From Falsiroseomonas algicola (GTDB taxonomy: Bacteria > Pseudomonadota > Alphaproteobacteria > Acetobacterales > Acetobacteraceae), in the NCBI RefSeq assembly GCF_011040385.1, contig NZ_JAAIKB010000008.1:1-64000 (forward strand): a stretch of DNA of 64,000 nucleotides, written 5' to 3'. Positions within the stretch are counted from its first letter, which is position 1; each line of letters opens with the position of its first letter. Below the pieces are notes generated by a model. The model did no database searches. It saw nothing but the letters and a program-made list of their open reading frames with translations, and was not told the DNA's origin. The position numbers and the translations under genes were made by a program. Positions 46,095 through 49,980 of this stretch are shown here, in pieces.

Positions 46095-46472
46095 TCAACC
46101 GGGCAGCAGGCGCCGCAACTCCGCCAGGACCGCATCCATGTCGAGCGGCTTGGAGAAGAGGCTCACCGGCGCCTCCCCCTCCCGCCGGAAGGCATCCTGC
46201 CCGCCCGCCGGCGCATAGCCCGTCATGACCACGACCGGCAGGTCCGGCCTCGCCGCGCGCAGCGCGCGGATCAGGCCGGCGCCATCCAGCCGGGGCATCC
46301 GGAGGTCCGTCAGCAGCAGGTCCGGCGGCTGGCGCGCCGCCAGTTCCATCGCCGCCTGGCCATCCGGGGCCAGCACCACCTCATAGCCATGGGAGAGGAG
46401 TTCATCCTCGATCGCCATGGCGGCGAGCCCTTCATCCTCCGCCACGAGTATGCGGTGCGCCATGGAGGCCAT
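46095..46472 (-). CDS. Single-domain response regulator
   Basis: 125 aa receiver only. Acidic pair in LVAEDEGLA, phospho-acceptor in LLLTDLRMPRLDG, Thr in VVMTGYAPAG and Lys in LFSKPLD. No output domain, so it acts by protein contact or as a phosphate relay. ATG 46472 overlaps the stop of the sensor kinase; ATG 46463 is an alternative. Confidence 0.9.
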   Translation of the reverse strand: MASMAHRILVAEDEGLAAMAIEDELLSHGYEVVLAPDGQAAMELAARQPPDLLLTDLRMPRLDGAGLIRALRAARPDLPVVVMTGYAPAGGQDAFRREGEAPVSLFSKPLDMDAVLAELRRLLPG

Positions 46473-48007
46473 CAGCAGGCGACGGCCAGGGGCATCAGCC
46501 CCTGGGCGGTGGGCTCGGACAGGACCAGGGTCATGGTGAAGCAGGCGCCCCCCTCCGGCGGGTTGGACACGGCGATGCCACCGCCCATCCCGCGTGCCAC
46601 CGCCGCGGCCAGGGACAGGCCGAGCCCGCTGCCATGGCCCGGATCCTTGGTGGTGAAGAAGGGATCGAAGATGGATTGGCGCAAGGCGTCCGGCACACCC
46701 GGTCCGCTGTCCCGCACCTCGATCACCACGCGCCCTCCCTGCTCGCGCAGCGCGACGCCGATGCGCGCGGGGGCGGCCGGGTCCGTGGCCCGGGCTTCCA
46801 GCACCGCGTCCCGTGCGTTGGAGAGCAGGTGCAGCACGGCCTCTTCCAGCCTGGCGGGGCTGCCGGTCACGGGCAGCGGACCCGATGGCGCGGTGAAGGA
46901 CAGGGCGATGTCATCCGGCGCATATTGTCCATCCGCGATCCGCACGGCGGCGCGCGCCACCCGGGCAGCGTCGAAGGTCTCGGCCTCGCCCGTTTCCGTC
47001 GCCAGGCCGCGGATGCGGCTCACCAGGTCGCCTGCCCGGCGCAACTGGCTGTCGATGACGTTCAGCGCCGCCATCAGCCGCGCCCCCTGTTCGGTCATGA
47101 GCCCCGTGGCCGCGTTGCGGGCGTGGCGCAGCCAGAGCGCGGCCGCGTTCAGCGGCTGGCTCGTCTCATGCGCCAGCCCGGCGCACATGGTGCCGATGGT
47201 CGCGAGCCGCGCGGATTCGACGATGCCGGCCTGCAGCCGCCGCGTTTCCGTCACGTCCCGCGCGCTGCCCAGCAGCCGGTCCACCTCGCCCGCCGCATTG
47301 CGCATCGGCACCAGCACGGTCTGCCACAGGCGATGGCCATGCGGCGTCTCGGCCTCCACCTCGTAGCGCTGGACCTCCCCGGTCGCGACGGCGCGCTGCC
47401 AGTTGGGCAGCACGCGTTCCGTGACTCCGGGGATGAAGCCCGTCTGCGCGTCCTTTCCCACGACCTGCGACGCCGGCAGGCCGAACAGCCTTTCATAGGC
47501 GGGATTCACGGTTTCCGTGACGAAGCGGGTACCGCCCTGGTCCACCCGCAGGACGAACAGCGCCTCCGCCAGGTTGGCGATGAAGGCGGCGGTCCGCGCC
47601 TCGCTGTCCAGCGCGCGGCGCTCCGCCAGGCGGCGCTCCTCCACCTCCCGCGCCAGGGCCGCCGGGCTCGGCAGGGCCAGCAGGCGGGGCAGCAGGGGCC
47701 AGAGGGTGATGGCGGTGGCGATCGACACCGCGGCGCAGAAGGCCTTGATCAGCCCTTCCAACAGCGGATTCGGGTAGAACATGGCCCAGGCATGGGCGAA
47801 ATGCGTGGCGCCGCAGGCGATGATGAACAGCGCGAAAAGGCCGAAGATCCAGGGATAGGCCAGGTCCCGCCGCCGCAGCGCGAAGACGACCAGCGCCGCC
47901 GGGATGGAGAAATAGGCAAGCCCCGTCCCGATATCGGACAGCAGATGCAGCCAGGCCAGGTCAGGCTCCAGCAGCATGCAGACGCCGGGGGGCGCGAGGT
48001 TCGGCAT
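46472..48007 (-). CDS. Sensor histidine kinase with ethylene-receptor-type membrane domain
   Basis: 511 aa from ATG 48007 (515 if the upstream TTG is used). Three transmembrane helices carry LLSDIGTGLAYFSIPAAL and LFIIACGATHFAHAW. With the ATG start the residues are Asp25, Tyr32, Pro36, Cys65 and His69, the same numbers as in Arabidopsis ETR1, where Cys65 and His69 bind the copper cofactor for ethylene. Then a PAS domain (about 133-255), His280 in AGLAHETSQPLNAAAL, the N-box HLLSNARDAV and FDPFFTTKDPGHGSGLGL. The ligand is inferred, not shown. Confidence 0.88.
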   Translation of the reverse strand: MPNLAPPGVCMLLEPDLAWLHLLSDIGTGLAYFSIPAALVVFALRRRDLAYPWIFGLFALFIIACGATHFAHAWAMFYPNPLLEGLIKAFCAAVSIATAITLWPLLPRLLALPSPAALAREVEERRLAERRALDSEARTAAFIANLAEALFVLRVDQGGTRFVTETVNPAYERLFGLPASQVVGKDAQTGFIPGVTERVLPNWQRAVATGEVQRYEVEAETPHGHRLWQTVLVPMRNAAGEVDRLLGSARDVTETRRLQAGIVESARLATIGTMCAGLAHETSQPLNAAALWLRHARNAATGLMTEQGARLMAALNVIDSQLRRAGDLVSRIRGLATETGEAETFDAARVARAAVRIADGQYAPDDIALSFTAPSGPLPVTGSPARLEEAVLHLLSNARDAVLEARATDPAAPARIGVALREQGGRVVIEVRDSGPGVPDALRQSIFDPFFTTKDPGHGSGLGLSLAAAVARGMGGGIAVSNPPEGGACFTMTLVLSEPTAQGLMPLAVAC

Positions 48008-48199: not shown

Positions 48200-48577
48200 T
48201 CAGGCTTCGGCAGGCATCAGGGAGACGTGGGCGGCAACCACGCGCCACCCCTCCGGCATCCGCACCCAGGTCTGGCTCTGCCGGCCGAGCCGACCATTGC
48301 GCGAAAAGGTCGTATTCGCGGTGGCGAAGTCCCGGCCATGGGTGGTGATCACGGTCCGCACCAGATCCCGCGCCAAGCCGACCGAGGGGCGGGATGCGCG
48401 GAAGGCCATGATCTCCTCATAGCCATGCAGGATCTCGGTCGCGCCGTAGCGGATGGTGCGCGGGTCGTTCCAGAACAGCTCGTCCAGCACCGCCACGTCA
48501 TTCGTCACCAGCGCGACCTCGTAGCGCTGGAAGGCGGCGGTGACCTCGGCCACGACCTCCGGGATGTCGATCTCCAT
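48200..48577 (-). CDS. AtzH/HpxZ-like NTF2-fold protein (DUF3225)
   Basis: 125 aa. [40 protein letters not shown] and the [13 protein letters not shown] segment are those of HpxZ/AtzH proteins, linked to oxalurate or carboxybiuret breakdown. Last gene of an operon with an amidase and a small GatC-like subunit, overlapping the amidase stop by ATGA. Function by context. Confidence 0.82.
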
Positions 48578-49980
48578 CAGGCATTCTCCTTCACATGCTG
48601 GGCAGCGACGGGGGGACAGCCGGCGAGCCCGGCCTCGACCAGGGCGGCGGCGGCGCGGAACAGCAGATCCTCCCGCCAGGGGGCGGCGACGAGTTGCACC
48701 CCGACAGGCAGGGAGGCACCGGCGCGGGCGGGATCAGCCAGCGGCACGGCCATGGCCGGCAGGCCGATGGCCGAGAAGGGCTGGGTATAGACGCCGAGAT
48801 GCGGCCGCGCCGGCACGGTCGCGCCATCCACCTCGATCATCGCCGTGCCGATGGGCGGCGCGACATAGGGCAGCAGCGGCGCCACCAGCACGTCGCATGC
48901 CTCGAAGATGCGCGACGCGGCGCGTGCCCAGGCCGCGCGGACACGCTGGGCCTGGGTGATCCAGTGCGCGGGCAGCAGGGCACCGGCCAGGAAGCGGTCG
49001 CGGGTCAGCGGGTCGAAGTCGTCCGCCCGGAGGCGGAGGTTCGGCAGGTGCAGGTTCGCCCCCTCCGCCAGCGTCACCAGCAGCGCGGCGGCCCGCCCCT
49101 CCGCCACGAGGTCGGGTGCAATGCGGGTGGTGGCACCGAGCGCCTGCGCCGCCAGCGCGACCGGCGCCAGCGCCTCCGGCTGCCCGCCGCGCTCGAAATA
49201 CCCGGCCGCGATGCCGATGCGGAGGCCGCCCAGTCCCGCCAGGCCGCTGACCGGCTCGAACTCCCGCGGCACCTGGGCGGGATCGGCCGGGTCCTCCCCC
49301 TGCATCGCCTCATAGACCAGGGCCAGGTCGTCAAGGCTGCGGGCGAAGGGGCCGACATGGTCGAAGCTGCCGGCAAAGAGATGCGCGCCGCGCCGGGACA
49401 ACCGCCCATAGGTCGGCTTCAGCCCCCAGATGCCGCAGAGCCCGGCCGGCACGCGGATGGAGCCATTGGTGTCGCTGCCGATGGCGATCGGCACGAGCCC
49501 CGCCGCCACGGCGGCCGCGGAACCGCCGGAGGAACCGCCCGCGATGCGCGCCGGGTCATGCGGGTTGCGCGTCGGCCCCTCATGGCTGTTCTCGGTCGAG
49601 AAGCCGAAGGCGAATTCATCCATGTTGGTGGCGCCGACCACCACCGCCCCGGCGGCGCGCAGCAGCTGCACCGCGAAGGCATCCTGCGCGGCCGCCGGGG
49701 CGTCCCGCCGGATCTTCGACCCCGCCAGCGTCCGCAGCCCTTCGAGGTCGAAGAGGTTCTTCACCGCCAGCGGCACGCCGGCGAGCGGCCCGGGATCGCG
49801 CCCCGCGGCGATGGCGGCATCCACCGCCGCCGCCTCCGCCCGCGCACGATCGGCGGTGACGGCGGTAAAGCAGTTGAGCGCGCCGTCGCGCGCGGCGATG
49901 TCGGCCAGCGCCGCCTCGACCACGGCGGAGGCGGTGGTGCGACGGGCGCGGATGGCGGCGACGGTGGCGGCGATGCTCAT
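48577..49980 (-). CDS. AtzE/HpxY-family amidase
   Basis: 467 aa amidase-signature enzyme. Catalytic Lys74 in [14 protein letters not shown], cis-Ser in [17 protein letters not shown] (about 150), and nucleophile Ser174 in [14 protein letters not shown]. With the AtzG-like subunit the complex resembles AtzE-AtzG (1-carboxybiuret hydrolase) or the HpxXY oxalurate hydrolase. The precise substrate cannot be read from sequence. Confidence 0.88.

Follow-up and report, generated by a model that had tools for sequence, protein, structure and literature searches.

The 64,000-nucleotide stretch of DNA analysed here (the window) carries on its minus strand an open frame of 511 codons at 46472-48007, in whose translation the two N-terminal segments highlighted by the original prediction, LLSDIGTGLAYFSIP and ACGATHFAHAW, are both present. 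Directly behind it lies a receiver-only gene, whose start codon shares one base with the stop codon of the kinase (TGATG). The features of the pair, all on the minus strand, are:

46472..48007 (-), ethylene-receptor-type histidine kinase, 511 aa, putative start ATG 48007
47672..47959 (-), ETR1_N ethylene-binding domain, residues 17-112 (Pfam, 116 bits; AlphaFold2 mean pLDDT 89.6)
47801..47815 (-), codons 65-69, Cys65 to His69, predicted copper ligands in predicted helix 2 (alignment with C75/H79 of AzoEtr1 and C65/H69 of ETR1)
47237..47521 (-), PAS_4 domain, residues 163-257 (Pfam, above cut-off)
47000..47191 (-), HisKA domain, residues 273-336, with H280 in HETSQPL (Pfam, below curated cut-off)
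46520..46861 (-), HATPase_c domain, residues 383-496 (Pfam, above cut-off)
46095..46472 (-), receiver-only response regulator, 125 aa, predicted phospho-acceptor Asp56 (Response_reg, 67.5 bits)

Alternative in-frame starts for the kinase are TTG 48019 and ATG 47977, and no clear ribosome-binding site was seen by eye upstream of the gene. The Pfam search gave the order ethylene-binding domain (EBD), PAS, HisKA and HATPase, with no GAF family found up to an E-value of 0.01. HisKA reached 18 bits against a cut-off of 26.9; its H-box motif HETSQPL is still there at H280, alongside the further kinase motifs LLSNARDAV, DSGPGV, FDPFFTTK and GSGLGLS. The architecture proposed originally, PAS, HisKA and HATPase without GAF and with a partner receiver, is thus borne out, with PAS_4 and HATPase_c above their cut-offs, HisKA as a sub-threshold match and a Response_reg gene overlapping the kinase end.

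The ethylene-binding domain and its predicted site

The HMM search suggested as a check of the prediction returned the ETR1_N family over residues 17-112 with an E-value of 9.5e-34 and 116 bits, against a cut-off of 27, and the same profile matched none of 14 control genomes, which rules out a chance match. Alignment with the N-terminus of Arabidopsis ETR1 places all seven ethylene-binding residues in the window kinase (D25, Y32, I35, P36, I62, C65 and H69), and K88 aligns with the helix-3 lysine K91 of ETR1. Cys10 of the window kinase aligns with the ETR1 Cys that forms the dimer disulphide. Unlike the window kinase, ETR1 contains a GAF domain and has its receiver fused to it. PMC11819568 puts the number of binding residues at seven and names D25, C65 and H69.

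Counted from ATG 48007, D25, Y32, P36, C65 and H69 do stand at the positions given in the original prediction. Their number-for-number equality with ETR1 is partly coincidental, since the start is putative, the ETR1 sequence has a 6-residue insertion relative to the window protein, and the numbers in AzoEtr1 are 35, 42, 46, 75 and 79. It is the spacing and alignment of the binding residues that matter, not the absolute numbers.

For residues 1-134, AlphaFold2 with an alignment of 50 sequences (mean pLDDT 89.6, pTM 0.70) predicted three long helices (15-45, 52-75 and 81-111), preceded by a short one (7-13) and followed by a fourth (115-133). In this model the first long helix carries D25, Y32 and P36, the second carries C65 and H69, and the third carries K88, in line with the three-helix N-terminus that had been proposed; because C65 and H69 fall in predicted helix 2, the Cys/His pair would not lie outside the membrane site. 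A profile search of PDB chains for a solved ethylene-binding domain found none (E up to 0.1), the best stretches of all 39 structure matches to the window kinase begin at residue 155 or later, and no PDB fold matched the predicted domain at E <= 0.001 (best E, 0.35).

AzoEtr1 as the nearest characterised system, and the wider distribution

In the plasmid collection, the seven records covering at least 80% of the window kinase all belong to Azospirillum, with 39.5-41.0% identity over 97-98%. The copy of A. brasilense Sp7 lies in NZ_CP012915, within an unannotated stretch, as a 525-aa frame with D35, C75, H79 and K98, followed by a 135-aa receiver whose start overlaps the kinase end by 8 bases; the upstream frames, read by eye as release factor 3 and aspartate-semialdehyde dehydrogenase, match the description in PMC11819568. 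Based on frame length, these four residues, the overlapping receiver and the upstream genes, we take the Sp7 locus to be AzoEtr1 of that paper.

The window kinase and AzoEtr1 are 41% identical (211/516 positions), nearly end to end, and their receivers 47% (54/116 positions). The two kinases are of similar length (511 vs 525 aa) and share the EBD-PAS-HisKA-HATPase order with no GAF found, the seven binding residues and the lysine, as well as the gene order, with a receiver-only gene directly downstream and overlapping ends. They differ in that HisKA of AzoEtr1 passes the Pfam cut-off whereas that of the window kinase falls below it, and in the overlap with the receiver (8 bases in Azospirillum vs 1 base in the window pair).

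According to PMC11819568, AzoEtr1(1-130) in yeast and Sp7 cells bind ethylene saturably, binding by Sp7 cells is largely or wholly lost upon disruption, and rescue tests showed proteins with D35A or C75A to behave as non-functional, with a caveat stated there on the two-plasmid set-up; phosphotransfer from AzoEtr1 to the receiver is a prediction of that paper. Ethylene binding has thus been measured for AzoEtr1, whereas the window protein is known from its sequence and predicted fold. The original prediction, which named only ETR1 and SynEtr1, overstated the surprise: the same paper describes in Azospirillum a receptor of EBD-PAS-HK order with a receiver gene. The window receptor is therefore not new in kind, the AzoEtr1 type having already been characterised experimentally, and the pair is a good further example of that type. 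SynEtr1 of Synechocystis, as described in PMC11819568, is alike in carrying an EBD on a bacterial histidine kinase with phosphotransfer to a response regulator, and unlike in that it doubles as a light receptor and has another output regulator. Plant ethylene receptors, by the same source, signal mostly in a kinase-independent manner.

By profile search, ETR1_N occurs in 21 of 59 relatives and 74 of 397 family genomes (72 above cut-off); of 398 genomes sampled across the phylum, 29 have it (28 above cut-off). A scan of named genomes yielded 208 candidate stretches, 178 of which encode a relative; among the best 80 of these 178, the loci closest in this domain come from an Acetobacteraceae pond MAG (93%), Roseomonas ponticola (92%) and Falsiroseomonas stagni (91%), which would place the window in or near Falsiroseomonas; other matches are from Azospirillum, Belnapia, Skermanella, Methylobacterium and many Nostoc. 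All 136 scanned loci have a single domain-bearing frame, and eight of the loci were dropped (copies of the two genes of the window's genome, and truncated or short frames including the weak match L022). Among the remaining 128, which may include duplicates between collections and were picked by similarity, so that the figures are biased upwards, C65 and H69 are each kept in 127, D25 in 126, Lys88 in 125, Cys10 in 122 and all seven binding residues in 118.

A frame resembling the window receiver (E < 1e-15) lies close behind the kinase at 58 of the 128 loci; some of these receivers run off the end of the locus, and part of the other 70 loci stop too early to tell. A tree was built from 46 receiver-paired kinases (exact duplicates removed) and 11 other EBD kinases chosen by hand, all stripped of the ethylene domain (roughly the first 130 residues). 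It unites the 46 in a single clade to the exclusion of the 11 (support 95/80), with several of the outside rows on long branches that drew a program warning. AzoEtr1 and the window kinase both belong to this clade, the former in its Azospirillaceae half (90/70) and the latter in its Acetobacteraceae/Roseomonadaceae half (100/99). The record L102, named Roseomonas genomospecies 6 ATCC 49961, groups among Azospirillum brasilense in the tree and may therefore be misnamed.

Most or all of ten other tested window neighbours are present in the same order at L030, L031 and L032, and part of them at L039, L042 and L046, so that a recent arrival on a mobile element is not suggested; beside the Azospirillum loci L063 and L082, none of the other tested neighbours was found. 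Directly upstream of the window kinase (48200-49980) lie HpxZ and AtzE-family amidohydrolase genes, in an order shared with L030-L032.

Altered ethylene domains and second kinases in the genus

The kinase is present in 14 of 15 genus genomes, neither it nor the ethylene domain being found in G005 at the thresholds used, and all seven binding residues are kept in 12 of the 14, the window's included. In the other two, G010 (L021) has changes at Y32, I35, P36 and I62 and keeps D25, C65, H69 and Lys88, while G012 (L023) is changed at Y32, I35, P36, I62, C65 and Lys88, thus losing the copper Cys, and keeps D25 and H69. Measured as mean identity to the 12 canonical genus members, the ethylene domain stands at 41% in G010 and 34% in G012, against 62-76% for the canonical members themselves. 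The corresponding values are 55% and 49% for PAS (canonical, 52-64%) and 57% and 61% for the kinase domain (58-69%); PAS in G012 and the kinase domain in G010 thus sit slightly under the canonical ranges, a much smaller drop than that of the ethylene domain. Both proteins have intact H-boxes, and the visible part of each adjoining receiver, cut by the locus end, keeps the Asp motif. A tree joining G010 and G012 was not rejected (p-AU 0.149), so two independent losses of the site are not established.

Beside the non-functional C75A form of AzoEtr1, the G010 and G012 variants suggest either a new input or a slow loss of function. Since these two counterparts keep the kinase after decay of the ethylene site, ethylene may account for only part of what the system does. 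A tentative reading, on balance somewhat doubtful, is that the kinase and receiver serve a function in the genus that outlives ethylene sensing, with at least two descendants, one without the copper Cys, being ethylene-blind and retaining PAS, kinase and receiver under another input. If true, the genus would hold natural loss-of-ligand variants beside intact receptors.

A second EBD kinase is encoded in the window's own genome (G000:C77:232512; L154:3965-5617). It is 49% identical in the ethylene domain, has all seven binding residues and the lysine together with PAS_3, HisKA and HATPase_c, and falls outside the receiver-paired clade on a long branch. No receiver was found close behind it at L154, where the neighbours, read by eye, are ssb-like upstream and methyltransferase-like downstream on the other strand. 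Second EBD kinases with fused receivers also lie some 12 kb away from the canonical gene, on its contig, at L027 (G008), where Asn replaces the His ligand, and L025 (G003), where Gly replaces D25.

A probable ethylene-sensing two-component pair

The residues, the family match, the predicted fold and the similarity to AzoEtr1 together make an ETR1-type copper/ethylene site on this bacterial kinase a well-supported prediction, and the copper-based sensing of ethylene (or another small ligand) proposed originally is upheld at that strength. The gene pair is very probably an ethylene-sensing two-component system, the counterpart of AzoEtr1-AzoRRetr1, in which we infer the roles of copper and ethylene and the direction of signalling from work on Azospirillum and plants. 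Against this reading weigh the HisKA score under the Pfam cut-off and an identity to AzoEtr1 of no more than 41%. In the membrane domain, probably a dimer, Cys65 and His69 of helix 2 would coordinate Cu(I), and ethylene would bind at this site; ethylene would change autophosphorylation of His280, lowering it if ETR1 is a guide; and phosphate would move from His280 to Asp56 of the receiver-only partner, which, having no recognisable output domain, probably acts on another protein.

That the domain binds copper and mainly senses copper, redox or another small ligand, with ethylene incidental, fits the prediction of a Cu(I) site, and this analysis came across no ethylene response for the genus. 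ACC deaminase gave no match in the source genome, which thus offers no extra hint of an ethylene-linked lifestyle. We nevertheless regard this alternative as unlikely, as all seven ethylene-binding residues are kept, beyond the metal ligands, and AzoEtr1, the nearest relative with experimental characterisation, binds ethylene and responds to it. It is still less probable that the kinase is driven mainly by PAS, with the membrane domain as a residual anchor that the genus is losing: the decay of the ethylene domain in G010 and G012, next to intact H-boxes and better-kept PAS and kinase domains, is what such a loss would look like, yet the site is complete in the 12 canonical members, and in the window kinase's clade of four the ethylene domain (mean identity, 74-76%) is, if anything, better conserved than PAS (62-64%) or the kinase domain (67-69%).

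The pair, for which ethylene sensing is the reading we prefer, extends the characterised Azospirillum type of receptor to the Falsiroseomonas/Belnapia group; among open-licence PMC papers, none was found on an ethylene receptor in Roseomonas. The conserved receiver-only partner offers a handle on the downstream pathway. For the role of the kinase without ethylene, the two relatives with decayed ethylene domains provide natural controls. If this reading is true, ethylene of plant or microbial origin could steer these bacteria, as in Azospirillum.
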